A program made the position numbers and the translations under genes. A stretch of DNA of 64,000 nt from Buchnera aphidicola (Cinara laricifoliae) (GTDB lineage: Bacteria; Pseudomonadota; Gammaproteobacteria; Enterobacterales; Enterobacteriaceae), in assembly GCF_900698945.1 (NCBI RefSeq), contig NZ_LR217717.1, positions 62,001 to 126,000 on the forward strand, given 5' to 3'. Shown piece after piece: positions 1 through 56,744 of the stretch (within the stretch, counting starts at the first letter, position 1; each line of letters begins with the position of its first letter). Below the pieces are notes generated by a model that was not told the origin of the DNA, ran no database searches, and saw only the letters and a list, made by a program, of their open reading frames with translations.

Positions 1-356
1 ATAAGCCGGGTTCTGTTTAAAACAGTCATTTATCTAGATTAATAATCACTTATTAATTCAAAGCAGTCTACCCGGAGTAGTTATGCGGGCCACATTCTCC
101 TTCTTGACCTTGCTCCTGATGGAAGTTTACCATGCCAAGATTGTTACCAATTTTGCGGTGCGCTTTTACCGCACCATTTCACCTTTTCCTATTAAAATAT
201 TATGATAATACATATTTTTTTTATATAGGTAGTTTATTTTCTGTTGCACTAGTCGTAAGATTACTCTTCCCAGGTGTTACCTGGCACCGTACCCTATGGA
301 GCCCGGACTTTCCTCTGTCAATAAAATTATATTACAGTGACTGTTCAATCAACTTC
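1..356 (-). ncRNA. rnpB: RNase P RNA (M1 RNA), 3' end truncated by window edge
   Basis: Catalytic RNA subunit of RNase P, which trims the 5' leaders of tRNA precursors together with the RnpA protein. Read on the minus strand, the 5' end resembles E. coli M1 RNA (GAAGUUGAUU... at 356). The conserved block GAGGAAAGUCCGGGCUCC (about 315-298), the GGUGCCAGGUAA block (about 290-275) and the 3'-proximal ACAGAACCCGGCUUA block (about 16-1) are all present. By comparison with E. coli about 15 nucleotides at the 3' end lie outside the window. The specificity-domain region (about 200-260) is A+T-rich and diverged. Its 5' end overlaps the rsmI stop codon by two bases, so its promoter must lie inside rsmI or it is processed from a joint transcript. 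An ORF of 80 codons on the opposite strand here is spurious. Confidence 0.96.
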
Positions 357-1212
357 ATAAAATATTTTCTTTAATAATTTTATTATAAAGAACATTTTTA
401 TTAAGTCCACATATTTTTTTGGTAATTTTTATTGCTGTAGTATTATTAGTTTCTTTTTTTATTATATTAAATATTTTTAATGCTTGTGAAGATATAGTTT
501 TTGTATTATTTTTTTTATCTCCTTCAATAATAATAGTTATTTCTCCTTTTTTCCAGTATATATCATTACTAATTATTAATAATAATTGTTCAGCTGTTCC
601 TCTCTGTATATTTTCCCATTTTTTAGTTATTTCTTTAGAAATTGTAATCTTTCGTGTAGCACCTATAATTTTTTTTATTAATTGTACTGTATGTATTAAT
701 CGTTTTGGAGATTCATATAAAATTATTGTTCGTTTTTCTTTTCGTAAAGAATATATTTTTTTTTCACATTTTTTTTTTTTATTTGGTAAAAATCCTTCAT
801 AACAAAATTGATTAGCTTTTAATCCTGAAGCACAGAGAGCTGTAATTGCTGCACATGCTCCAGGTAGTGGTACTACACGAATATTATTATAATATGCATG
901 CTTGACTAATATATATCCGGGATCATTAATAATTGGAGTTCCGGCTTTAGATACAATTGCAATATTATTACCATTTTTTAATATATTAATATATTGATTA
1001 GTTTTTTTTTTTTCGTTAATAGTATTTAAAGATAATAATTTATTTATAATAGAAAATTGATTCAATAAAATTGATGTATGTTTAATATTTTCAGTTATAA
1101 TAAAATCTACTTTTTTTAGAATATTGACGGATCGATATGTTATATCTAATAAGTTTCCTATGGGTGTTGGTACAATATATAATAAACCGATATTATTTTT
1201 TTTTTTATACAT
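355..1212 (-). CDS. rsmI: 16S rRNA (cytidine-1402 2'-O)-methyltransferase RsmI
   Basis: Tetrapyrrole-methylase-fold enzyme that 2'-O-methylates C1402 of 16S rRNA in the decoding centre, using S-adenosylmethionine. The 285-residue product matches the usual RsmI length. It shows the N-terminal PTPIGNL motif (residues 15-21), a central SKAGTPIINDPG segment, the VPLPGACAAITAL segment and the LYESPKR motif. It is followed directly by rnpB on the same strand with a two-base overlap. The gene is intact but carries three long homopolymer tracts: T12 at 769-780, T12 at 1002-1013 and T11 at 1196-1206 on the plus strand, which are poly-A in the mRNA. These would be expected to cause slippage in a fraction of transcripts. 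Identification is secure; expression efficiency is an inference. Confidence 0.95.
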   Translation of the reverse strand: MYKKKNNIGLLYIVPTPIGNLLDITYRSVNILKKVDFIITENIKHTSILLNQFSIINKLLSLNTINEKKKTNQYINILKNGNNIAIVSKAGTPIINDPGYILVKHAYYNNIRVVPLPGACAAITALCASGLKANQFCYEGFLPNKKKKCEKKIYSLRKEKRTIILYESPKRLIHTVQLIKKIIGATRKITISKEITKKWENIQRGTAEQLLLIISNDIYWKKGEITIIIEGDKKNNTKTISSQALKIFNIIKKETNNTTAIKITKKICGLNKNVLYNKIIKENIL

Positions 1213-22790: not shown

Positions 22791-22863
22791 TACGTTCGAG
22801 TGGATTTGAACCACTAACTTCTACTATGTCATAGTAGCACTCTAACCATTGAGTTACGAACGT
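22791..22863 (-). tRNA. tRNA-Val (anticodon GAC)
   Basis: On the minus strand the sequence folds as a 73-base cloverleaf. The acceptor stem is ACGTTCG/CGAACGT, the D arm is ACTC/GAGT, and the anticodon stem is CTACT/AGTAG with loop ATGACAT. The variable loop is five bases, the T arm is AGTGG/CCACT with loop TTCAAAT, and the discriminator is A. U33 precedes anticodon GAC, and the anticodon loop and T arm closely match E. coli tRNA-Val(GAC). CCA is not encoded. It reads valine codons GUC and GUU. It is the only tRNA I found in the window. Confidence 0.93.
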
Positions 22864-34658: not shown

Positions 34659-36740
34659 TTATAAGTAAGAAAAATCAGTTATATATAAAAATATTTTTTT
34701 AATTTTTTTTAATATACATATACGATATGAACATATTTCTATTTTAGGATCATGTATAAAAGATTTTTTAAAAAATATTTCTATTGGTTCACATAATTGG
34801 TATATTTTTATTAATATATTTAAGTAATTTATTTTATTGAATTGATCTGTTTTTTTTTCAATTTTTTTGATTTTTATAAGTAATTGATTTTCATGTAATA
34901 GAAAATTTTTTCTATAATACGTATCATCTAAATTTATTTTTATTAATTTTAATTTTTTTACAGTTTTTAAAATAATATTATTGATTCTTTTATATATAAT
35001 AATGATATTATTTATGTTATAGTTTTTTTTAAAATCTGTAAGTGCATCTATACGTTTATTAATATCAAGAATGTTTATTAATTTTAAAGATAAAACAGAT
35101 TGTATAATTTTTTTATTATATTTTTTTGAGTACAATGATATATATTTTGAAAAAATAAAATCTAAAATTAATTTTATTATTTCTTTTTTTTGTTTTATGT
35201 GATGATATAAATTAATTGATTTTTTAATTATTTTATATAAATTAATATTTATTTTTTTTTCAACTATTATTCGAATGATTCCGATACTTGCTCGACGTAA
35301 AGCGAATGGATCTTTATGATTAGTTGGTTTTTTATTAATACTAAAAATTCCTACAATTGTATCTATTTTATCTGCAACACTTAATGCGCATGATATTTTT
35401 TGTGTCGGTAAATCTGATTGTGAAAAATTAGGTAGATAGTGTTCTTTAATAGCTAAAGATACTTTCTTATTTTCTTGATGATTTAACGCATAATGCATAC
35501 CAATTATTCCTTGTAGAGCTGTACATTCTGTTATTATATTGGTTGTTAAATCACATTTAGATAAAATAGCTGATTTTTTTGTTAATTTTATATTTGTTTT
35601 TATTTTTTTTGCAATATATTGGCTTAATTTTTTTATTCTTAAAGTTTTATCATACATAGATCCAAGATTTTTTTGAAAAGATATATTTTTTAATAAAATT
35701 AATCTATCAGAAAATTTTATTGTTTGATCTTTATTTATAAAAAAATTTATATTGCTTAGTTTTGAATGTAATACCTGTTCGTGTTCTCGGATAATTTTTT
35801 TTTTATTGACAGTATTGATATTACTGATAAGTATAAAGTAATTTGTTATTGTATTTTTTTTTATATTATATAATGGAAAATATTTTTGATTATTTTCCAT
35901 AGTATATATCAATAGTTCTTGAGGTATTTTTAGATATTTTTTTTTGAATTGACCTAAATGCGCTATTGGCCATTCTACAGATGCTGTAGTTTCTTCCAAT
36001 AAATTTTTATTAATATGAATTGATTTATTTATTTTTTTTGATAAATAATTTAATTGTATAAGTATATTTTTTTTTCTTTCTTTATAATCTATTATAACAT
36101 ATTTTTTTTTAAATAAATCAGAAGTATATTGATCAGCATGTGTAAAAATTATTTTTTCAGGAGCCATTAAAAAATGTCCATAAGAAATATTTTTATAAGT
36201 AATTTCCGGTATATTTAAAGAAATAATTTTATCATTTAATAATATCATTATATTAAGTATTGGTCTAGAAAATCGTATGGAATTGGTATTCCATAGCATA
36301 GATTTTTTTGATGGTATTTTTTTTATTATTTTTGATAAAATATCTATTAAATTTTTTTTTAATGAGGGAGCTTTTTCTTTACTTATATAAGTAAGATATT
36401 TTTTTTTATTAATATTTATTATTTCTGTATTTTTAATAGAGATATGATGTGTTTTTAACCATAATTTTGTTAATTTATTTATTTCATGGTTATTATTAAA
36501 TGCTTTTTCTATTGGTGGACCTATTTTTCTAATATATTTATTTTTTTGAACATATGATAAACAAAAAATTTTTAATGCTATTCTTTTAGAAGTATAAAAT
36601 AAAAGTATAGATTGATATTGAATATTATAATTATTTAACTCTTTTCTTGTAGATGAATAGAAAAATTCTGCTATATTTTTTAGTTCCTTACTTGGTAGAT
36701 CTTCAGTTTGTATTTCTATAATGAAAGTTTTGTGTTTCAT
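34659..36740 (-). CDS. glyS: Glycyl-tRNA synthetase beta subunit
   Basis: Beta subunit of the bacterial alpha2-beta2 class II enzyme charging tRNA-Gly; it supplies tRNA-binding and HD-like domains. The 693 residues match E. coli GlyS (689). Conserved segments include IEIQTEDLPSKEL at the N-terminus, VEWPIAHLGQFKKKYL, MENNQKYFPLYN, and the helical C-terminal part with KKPTNHKDPFALRRASIGIIRI. The central and C-terminal parts are strongly enriched in lysine, isoleucine and asparagine from A+T bias. It starts three bases after the glyQ stop, a coupled pair as in E. coli. Confidence 0.95.
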   Translation of the reverse strand: MKHKTFIIEIQTEDLPSKELKNIAEFFYSSTRKELNNYNIQYQSILLFYTSKRIALKIFCLSYVQKNKYIRKIGPPIEKAFNNNHEINKLTKLWLKTHHISIKNTEIININKKKYLTYISKEKAPSLKKNLIDILSKIIKKIPSKKSMLWNTNSIRFSRPILNIMILLNDKIISLNIPEITYKNISYGHFLMAPEKIIFTHADQYTSDLFKKKYVIIDYKERKKNILIQLNYLSKKINKSIHINKNLLEETTASVEWPIAHLGQFKKKYLKIPQELLIYTMENNQKYFPLYNIKKNTITNYFILISNINTVNKKKIIREHEQVLHSKLSNINFFINKDQTIKFSDRLILLKNISFQKNLGSMYDKTLRIKKLSQYIAKKIKTNIKLTKKSAILSKCDLTTNIITECTALQGIIGMHYALNHQENKKVSLAIKEHYLPNFSQSDLPTQKISCALSVADKIDTIVGIFSINKKPTNHKDPFALRRASIGIIRIIVEKKININLYKIIKKSINLYHHIKQKKEIIKLILDFIFSKYISLYSKKYNKKIIQSVLSLKLINILDINKRIDALTDFKKNYNINNIIIIYKRINNIILKTVKKLKLIKINLDDTYYRKNFLLHENQLLIKIKKIEKKTDQFNKINYLNILIKIYQLCEPIEIFFKKSFIHDPKIEICSYRICILKKIKKIFLYITDFSYL

Positions 36741-54844: not shown

Positions 54845-54934
54845 TTTTTTTTAAATTTCAAAAATTTAATTATTTATTTTAATTAATAGATCGTATTTAA
54901 TATATATATGTAATTTACTTATAGGAATAAAATC

Positions 54935-56744
54935 ATGTCCGATATTTCTTTAGAAAAAAATTTTTTTTTTAAATAATACTACTAGAAAAATTTTTGATAA
55001 TAATCCTATTATCGGTTCTTTATTTAAGATATTTGGAAAAAAAAATTTTTTTATTCAAAATACTTGTTTTCAATATCCAGTTTTATGGATTAATAGTAAA
55101 ATTTTAATACAGGTTGTTAAGTTTATAAAAAAAAATGATATTTGTTCATATGATATGTTGTTTGATTTACATGGTATAGATGAACGTTTACGAAAAAATA
55201 TTGATAATATACCGAATACTGATTTTACAGTGTTTTATCATTTTTTATCAATTACTCATAATTGTGATCTTATTTTAAAGGTAGCTTTATTAGAAAATAA
55301 GTTACAATTACCTACAATTACTTCAATTTTTTTAAATTCAAATTGGTATGAACGTGAAACATGGGAAATGTTTGGTATAACATTTATTGGACATCCTTGT
55401 TTAATTCGTATTTTAATGCCTAAAAATTGGATTGGACATCCTTTGCGAAAAGATTATGCATCTCATGCAACTGAATTAGATAGTTTTTTTTTTACAAAGC
55501 AGAAAGAAGATGTAGCAATGGAAGCATTACGTTTTTGTCCTGAATCGTGGGGTTTAAAACATATTAAATCTAATAATTTAAAATATATGTTTTTAAATTT
55601 TGGACCTAATCATCCTTCTTCACATGGAGCTTTTCGAATAATACTTCAATTACACGGAGAAAAAATAGTAAATTGTATTCCTGATATTGGTTATCACCAT
55701 CGTGGCGCAGAAAAGATCGCTGAACGACAATCTTGGCATAATTATATACCTTATACGGATCGAATAGAATATTTAGGTGGTTGTATAAATGAAATGCCTT
55801 ATATATTAGCGATAGAAAAATTAGCAGATATTATTGTACCAGATCGTGTTCAAGTAATTAGAATTTTATTATCTGAGCTATTTAGAATTAATAGTCATTT
55901 ATTATTTATTTCTACGTTCATCCAAGATGTAGGTAGTATGAGCACAGTGTTTTTAGCTTTTACTGATCGTCAAAAAATATATGATATAATTGAGCATATT
56001 ACTGGTGCTCGTATGCATCCTGCTTGGTTTCGTATTGGTGGAGTAGCAAAAGATTTACCAGTTAATTGGCATCATTTTTTAAAAGAATTTTTGATCTGGA
56101 TGCCGAAACGTTTAGATTTTTATGTAAAAGTAGCGTTAAAAAATAGTATTCTTATTTCTCGATCTGTTGGTATAGCATCTTATGAAAGACAAGAAGCGTT
56201 GTCTTGGGGAGTTACAGGTGCAGGATTGAGAGCAACTGGTGTGAATTTTGATGTTAGAAAACAACGTCCCTATTCAGGTTATCAAAATTTTGATTTTGAT
56301 ATTCCGATTGGAGATAGAGTTAGTGATGCTTATACGAGAGTATTATTAAAAGTTGAAGAAATTCGACAAAGTTTAAAAATATTAAAACAATGTTTGTTAA
56401 ATATGCCGAATGGTTCTTTTAAGTCTGATCACCCATTAACCACTCCTCCAAATAAAAAAAATTCTTTATTTAATATTGAAACTATGATTACTCATTTTTT
56501 ACAATCATCTTGGGGTCCGATAATGCCTGTAAACGAAAGTTTTCAAATGATTGAAGCAACTAAAGGAATTAATAGTTACTATTTAATTAGTGACGGTAAT
56601 TCAACTAGTTACCGAACTCGTATTCGTACTCCTAGTTTTGCGCATTTACAACAAATTCCATCTGTTATATGTGGACAGTTAATTTCAGATTTAATTGTTT
56701 ATCTTGGTAGTATTGATTTTGTTATGTCAGATGTCGATCGTTAA
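54935..56744 (+). CDS. nuoCD: NADH-quinone oxidoreductase fused subunit CD, with frameshift at a homopolymer tract
   Basis: Fused peripheral subunits C and D of complex I, which form the quinone-binding site with NuoB. The ATG at 54935 (with AGGA upstream) opens MSDISLEKN, then the frame hits a stop at 54974 just after an A7-T10 tract (54954-54970). Removing one base from this tract joins it to the frame continuing to 56744 and gives 602 residues, close to E. coli NuoCD (about 600). The joined region ([16 protein letters not shown]) aligns with the E. coli N-terminus. The first ATG of the downstream frame (55155) corresponds to the middle of the NuoC domain (MLFDLHG), so it is not a natural start. 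The D domain is intact ([24 protein letters not shown]-terminal FVMSDVDR). Probably functional through transcriptional slippage. Confidence 0.9.

Follow-up and report, generated by a model that had tools for sequence, protein, structure and literature searches.

How can a subunit of complex I be supplied by a gene whose start codon and reading frame do not match? The question is raised by nuoCD of Buchnera aphidicola (Cinara laricifoliae), which lies within a stretch of 64,000 nucleotides (contig NZ_LR217717.1, positions 62,001 to 126,000 of the forward strand; referred to here as the window) from a genome of 445,591 bases in three contigs, 99.21% complete. The GC content across the window is 19-28% in 4-kb windows; the nuo and rsmI names were assigned from the sequence, the nuo names also from gene order. 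On the plus strand, a Shine-Dalgarno-like AGGA at 54923..54926 is positioned 8 nt upstream of the nuoCD ATG (54935-54937), and GGA- or GAG-like sequences, read by eye, are found at similar spacing in the relatives. From this ATG a zero-frame ORF of 13 codons extends to a TAA at 54974-54976 (54935..54976, plus strand), running through the tract A7-T10 (54954..54970, plus strand), which consists of A7 at 54954-54960 and T10 at 54961-54970, the latter constituting the frame break according to both the sequence and the comparison with relatives. The NuoCD body frame, by contrast, is open from 54954 to its stop at 56742-56744, with 590 codons after the tract plus the stop (54972..56744, plus strand), an assignment based on the ORF list, the relatives and dN/dS. 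The same frame is closed upstream by a TAG at 54951..54953 (plus strand), immediately before the tract, which leaves the body of this genome's nuoCD without a usable start between ATG and tract. Between 54954 and 55155, the body frame of the window's genome contains no ATG, GTG or TTG; the first such codon, at 55155..55157 (plus strand), corresponds by ORF reading to residue 74 of the full protein. Joining leader to body requires one nucleotide fewer in the message, or two more. The preliminary description of this locus had reported the split at the tract, which we find as described, and had counted 602 residues for the product with one base fewer, a figure that the arithmetic bears out; its statement that the remainder of the operon is intact also holds, the neighbouring nuo ORFs (nuoA, nuoB, nuoE, nuoF, nuoG and on) all being open in the window. 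In the body frame, 66 nt past the T10, there is an additional tract, A9-T7 (55037-55052), which could pair in the RNA with A7-T10 to give a predicted hairpin of nearly all A-U pairs.

A survey of the genus, with one genome per species and with the caveat that the relatives may share laboratories and methods, located nuoCD in all 16 genomes compared. The comparison of tract lengths among relatives, proposed in the preliminary description as a check, gave a clear outcome: 11 of the 16 (L007-L017) share the same ATG, the same T10 and the same frame offset. The A-run that precedes the T10 varies among these genomes, from the usual A7 to A5 in L016 and A6G in L017, and the first stop in the zero frame is encountered after 13-16 codons. 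The start ATG itself is kept in 12/16 genomes, the twelfth being G009 (L018), where it is followed by A14 and is again out of frame, with a different offset that calls for one nucleotide more or two fewer. A protein tree based on 36 genes, with its root at G014 and G008, places G009 as the sister of the 11. The four other genomes of the genus (L019-L022) have a shorter NuoCD N-terminus and a later in-frame ATG. As judged from the divergence of its carriers, the break is old, because the lowest pairwise DNA identity among the 11 genomes is 0.727 and the length of their tree amounts to 2.26 substitutions per site. Outside the genus, a family search covered 295 genomes, four of them from this genus, and returned a match in 270; starts were read in 26 newly found loci, and all 26 have a body-frame ATG, GTG or TTG ahead of the segment that aligns with residue 74. 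From these loci, the break appears to date from within this genus.

The constancy of the tract was assessed in 50 orthologous genes, aligned across the syntenic region (64-66 kb) that the 11 genomes share. In the window's genome these genes hold 59 listed A/T tracts of at least 9 nt (57 distinct, two being listed twice in overlapping genes), and only two of them, the nuoCD T10 and an A9 at 35945, are of equal length in all 10 relatives. When the set is narrowed to the genome's own tracts of at least 10 nt, the T10 alone out of 20 has the same length in 10/10 relatives, the next best reaching 8/10. Its columns require zero parsimony changes over the 11 genomes, while neighbouring sites do change. 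Indel turnover was gauged roughly in three sister pairs, taken from nine ordered pairs run, with a non-coding set that is small and less certain in its pairing. Non-coding tracts of at least 8 nt had kept their length in 6/26 cases, as compared to 305/317 for tracts in open frames. Taken together, the invariance of the T10 and the different turnover of non-coding and open-frame tracts suggest that its length is kept as though a reading frame relied on it.

Along these lines, selection on the protein was evaluated on either side of residue 74. Past this residue, dN/dS is 0.05 between the window's genome and its nearest relative, G015, and 0.111 over all pairs of the 11 genomes; between the tract and residue 74 it amounts to 0.422 (11 genomes). 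The dN to G001 is 0.040 for the window's genome and 0.045 for G015, that is, the window's own lineage is unrelaxed. The stretch from the tract to residue 74 is free of body-frame stops in 11/11 genomes, and the other two frames contain stops in 11/11, those of G003 numbering 4 and 7; no stop interrupts the 590 body codons of the window's gene. Judged by these ratios, NuoCD is under purifying selection, and the dN/dS comparison of the 11 genomes gave no sign of relaxation or of additional decay. The leader of 26 nt ahead of the tract is too short to be tested at the codon level; counted by eye, it displays no clear codon-position signal in the ATG frame.

The explanation to which we lean, with somewhat better than even confidence, is that nuoCD carries an old frame break which is bypassed by RNA polymerase slippage on the T10. 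The break would be old and fixed, and would reside in a weakly constrained N-terminal tail of NuoCD. Ribosomes would start at the conserved ATG at 54935 and, on a message of genomic length, would read 13 codons before the stop. Slippage of RNA polymerase on the T10 would shorten some of the messages by one U (or lengthen them by two) and so join the N-terminal tail to the NuoCD body, and it is this corrected fraction that would supply the complex I subunit. Slippage itself, its direction, its efficiency and the full-length product are all four what we infer. One should add that, as the start codons read, slippage is not forced in 9/11 genomes of the clade, because there a body-frame start is possible between the conserved ATG and the tract; it is forced only in the window's genome, in G012 and, outside the 11, in G009. 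One study describes deletion-type rescue by E. coli RNA polymerase that reached 10% on T8 and was not seen with the A runs under study (PMC6260861), behaviour that would suit a T10. Loss of one U is, however, the rarer direction when set against transcript data from Buchnera, in which 151/157 insertions but only 16/57 deletions were located in homopolymers, the deletions there increasing with run length (PMC5574713). Since insertions prevail there, the corrected share of nuoCD messages may be small. For other genes of Buchnera and Blochmannia, a review quotes mixed pools of messages in which slippage has corrected 12-50% of the transcripts (PMC5009743).

A second case was encountered in the same window at rsmI (355..1212, minus strand), which begins with ATG-TAT-A11, the A11 occupying 1206-1196, and which is in frame here. 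In all 15 other genomes of the genus the rsmI start is out of frame with the body, such that the window's genome is the sole in-frame case of 16. The run is A10 in 13 of the 15, A9 in G010, and A13 behind a GTG in G012. Fourteen of the 15 broken genes need one extra nucleotide, and G010 needs one fewer (or two more); one extra A is the usual direction on poly(A) and fits these 14 relatives. A body-frame TTG is present in G004, G002, G011 and G012, and in 11/15 broken genes no ATG, GTG or TTG occurs in the body frame from the opening of the frame to 20 codons past a conserved anchor. The dN/dS of rsmI ranges from 0.169 to 0.236 in five pairs; its body is interrupted further on in G010 and G013. 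Outside the genus, rsmI was found in 38 of the 44 small-genome relatives searched, and 29 of the 30 loci read have an in-frame start codon near the N-terminus. The exception, L212 (G236, another genus), lacks a standard in-frame start and has, as read by eye, an A-run beside an upstream ATG; possibly it represents an independent case. The in-frame rsmI of the window is possibly a reversion. For rsmI, an explanation that dispenses with slippage (or with a ribosomal -1 shift) is harder to find than for nuoCD, and the occurrence of two conserved start-proximal breaks among 50 genes suggests that the phenomenon is not a one-off.

The competing explanations of the nuoCD locus differ considerably in weight. 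A sequencing or assembly error, with a true length of T9, would be the obvious suspect, as homopolymers are the classic place for such errors and the genomes may come from shared laboratories and methods; it is nevertheless extremely improbable, given that 11 separate genomes whose flanking sequences have diverged share the T10 and its offset, that open-frame tracts agree between sister genomes (the 305/317 of equal length given above), and that the sister lineage G009 is broken at another tract. An equally small chance is given to the idea that nuoCD is dead or dying. A break near the start, in a reduced genome in which decay is common, would be in keeping with a pseudogene, yet the low dN/dS of the body (both against G015 and over the 11 genomes), an own branch that is not relaxed, 590 codons free of stops, a break common to 11 species and the open nuo ORFs next to it all speak against decay, and the preliminary description's view of nuoCD as a surviving gene is upheld. 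Ribosomal frameshifting by +1 or -2 on the U10 of an unaltered message is regarded as improbable, if less so than error or decay. On a run of U, tRNA-Phe can pair again in whichever register, and the protein product would be identical to that of slippage; furthermore, rsmI would need a -1 shift on its A-run, and -1 is a common kind of ribosomal shift. The shift required at nuoCD is not this common one, and features of a prfB-like +1 site or of a slippery heptamer for -1 are not found at nuoCD. No G-rich internal Shine-Dalgarno-like element was seen by eye before the tract, and no fixed stop marks the slip site, the zero-frame product ranging from 13 to 16 codons. Nor was strong RNA structure detected downstream of the tract: of the 23 predicted pairs nearly all are A-U or G-U and only two show changes on both sides, the covariation term being -0.11.

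The most substantial competitor is an alternative start, according to which translation begins in the body frame and the tract needs no slippage at all. In most relatives a second start codon would be located just past the conserved ATG, in the window's genome a non-standard codon such as the ATT at 54960 or 54990 would take its place, and the tract length would be kept since it is in frame for that start. On the whole we hold this to be unlikely for nuoCD, though it deserves a close look. An ATG, GTG or TTG in the body frame before the tract, followed by no stop, is present in 9/11 clade genomes, to be compared with 150/495 gene-genomes for 48 other genes, and body-frame stops within the first 26 nt are met in 2/11 for nuoCD against 393/495 gene-genomes. 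An alternative start would also explain directly why the T10 never turns into T9, and the four genomes of the genus with a later start do without the tail. The excess is modest, however, as 6/48 other genes show such a start in at least nine species, and the candidate codons vary in kind and place from species to species, in contrast to the ATG with its Shine-Dalgarno-like sequence, which is kept in 12/12. Such a codon is missing from the window's genome (owing to the TAG at 54951), from G012 and from G009, and the window's gene, which has no standard start before residue 74, is still unrelaxed. The same explanation fails for rsmI in 11/15 broken genomes. Polymerase slippage is ranked first for the window, and across the clade the second start has to be taken seriously as its rival.

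It is instructive to place the slippage reading of nuoCD beside what has been described for other endosymbionts. Slippage-rescued frameshifts in poly(A) tracts of Buchnera and Blochmannia were reportedly the subject of Tamas et al. 2008 (PNAS), whose title names poly(A) tracts. The likeness is that a long A/T homopolymer breaks the frame of a gene which is conserved in other respects, in an endosymbiont with a reduced genome. Two differences stand out: the nuoCD run is T on the coding strand, such that one U has to be lost from the message (or two gained), and the evidence comes from corrected transcripts there and from sequence comparison here. Wernegreen, Kauppinen and Degnan 2010 (MBE) is said, by its title, to hold that selection keeps ancient frameshifts in homopolymers, which is the same claim as is made here for nuoCD; for nuoCD, the tract is kept at identical length in eleven species, and a sister lineage is broken in another register. 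In Blochmannia vafer, poly(A) or poly(T) tracts carry short indels in eight genes that are considered functional, and two genes, erfK and ytfM, show signs of independent events or reversion (PMC3017870). In this respect they resemble rsmI and the nuoCD of G009; the differences are another symbiont, other genes, and three genomes in place of a long series of species on one tract (PMC3017870). Shigella spa13 and other genes with programmed slippage share with nuoCD a homopolymer that shifts the frame of a fraction of the messages, and they differ in that the ratio of products there has a known function (PMC5009743), as opposed to a 13-residue product of nuoCD without known use.

As in slippage-rescued homopolymer genes of endosymbionts, a single break in a long A/T run was found in nuoCD, in a gene otherwise open, with purifying selection past the break and conservation of the break between species. 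The usual pattern of a poly(A) run corrected by insertion is not what nuoCD displays; this pattern is not essential, poly(T) tracts being named as well in PMC3017870. Events like the nuoCD break are known from endosymbionts, and this one is unusually well conserved. Among the titles and abstract openings surveyed, none mentions a comparable break in nuoCD or rsmI, and in the main text of a Cinara symbiont genome paper (PMC6908640) the terms slippage, nuo, complex I and homopolymer do not appear. Frame breaks in symbiont homopolymers are often read as errors or as first steps of decay; nuoCD and rsmI together make it possible to test clearly whether polymerase slippage is merely tolerated in reduced genomes or put to use. 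They also warn annotators not to call such genes dead or trim them to a later ATG.

A shortening of the tract to T9 would place the nuoCD ATG in frame, and tracts of this type mutate readily, yet none of the 11 lineages shows it, which plain rescue leaves unexplained. By contrast, rsmI appears to have come into frame in the window's own lineage, while nuoCD stayed broken. Either there is a preference for the broken nuoCD, or the T10 is needed by a second start, or nothing is gained by T9. A bolder proposal, which is speculative and in our estimate doubtful, would regard the T10 as a maintained slippage switch and not as a scar that is put up with: selection would preserve the break at exactly this length so that only a set share of messages yields the subunit. 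The start-proximal homopolymers, T10 of nuoCD and A10 of rsmI, might on this proposal form a genus-wide class of output-setting elements, in which poly(T) would lend itself to deletion and poly(A) to insertion.

The search for further breaks combined several scans. A tblastn comparison of 2,066 stop-to-stop ORFs with 16 regions was based on pieces of at least 20 residues and is for this reason blind to short leaders like that of nuoCD. Among the clusters supported by two or more query genomes, those seen from at least eight were located in G010 (six) and G013 (two); weaker ones, from 2-6 query genomes, are present in most other genomes, several of them at recurring spots at ~22-25 kb, at ~32 kb and near the beginnings of the regions. 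The frame-profile scan of the 50 gene alignments showed shifts solely within ~100 columns of the ends. A survey of starts flagged 8/50 genes among the matches listed: nuoCD and rsmI in many genomes, and six others in one genome each. G010 (L173-L176) has six gene breaks over 66 kb, with late in-frame starts in nuoB, nuoE and nuoG, and its breaks represent either sequencing errors or real decay. Finally, Rfam places an RNase P RNA, cut by the window edge, at 1-356 and a tRNA at 22791-22863, both on the minus strand.
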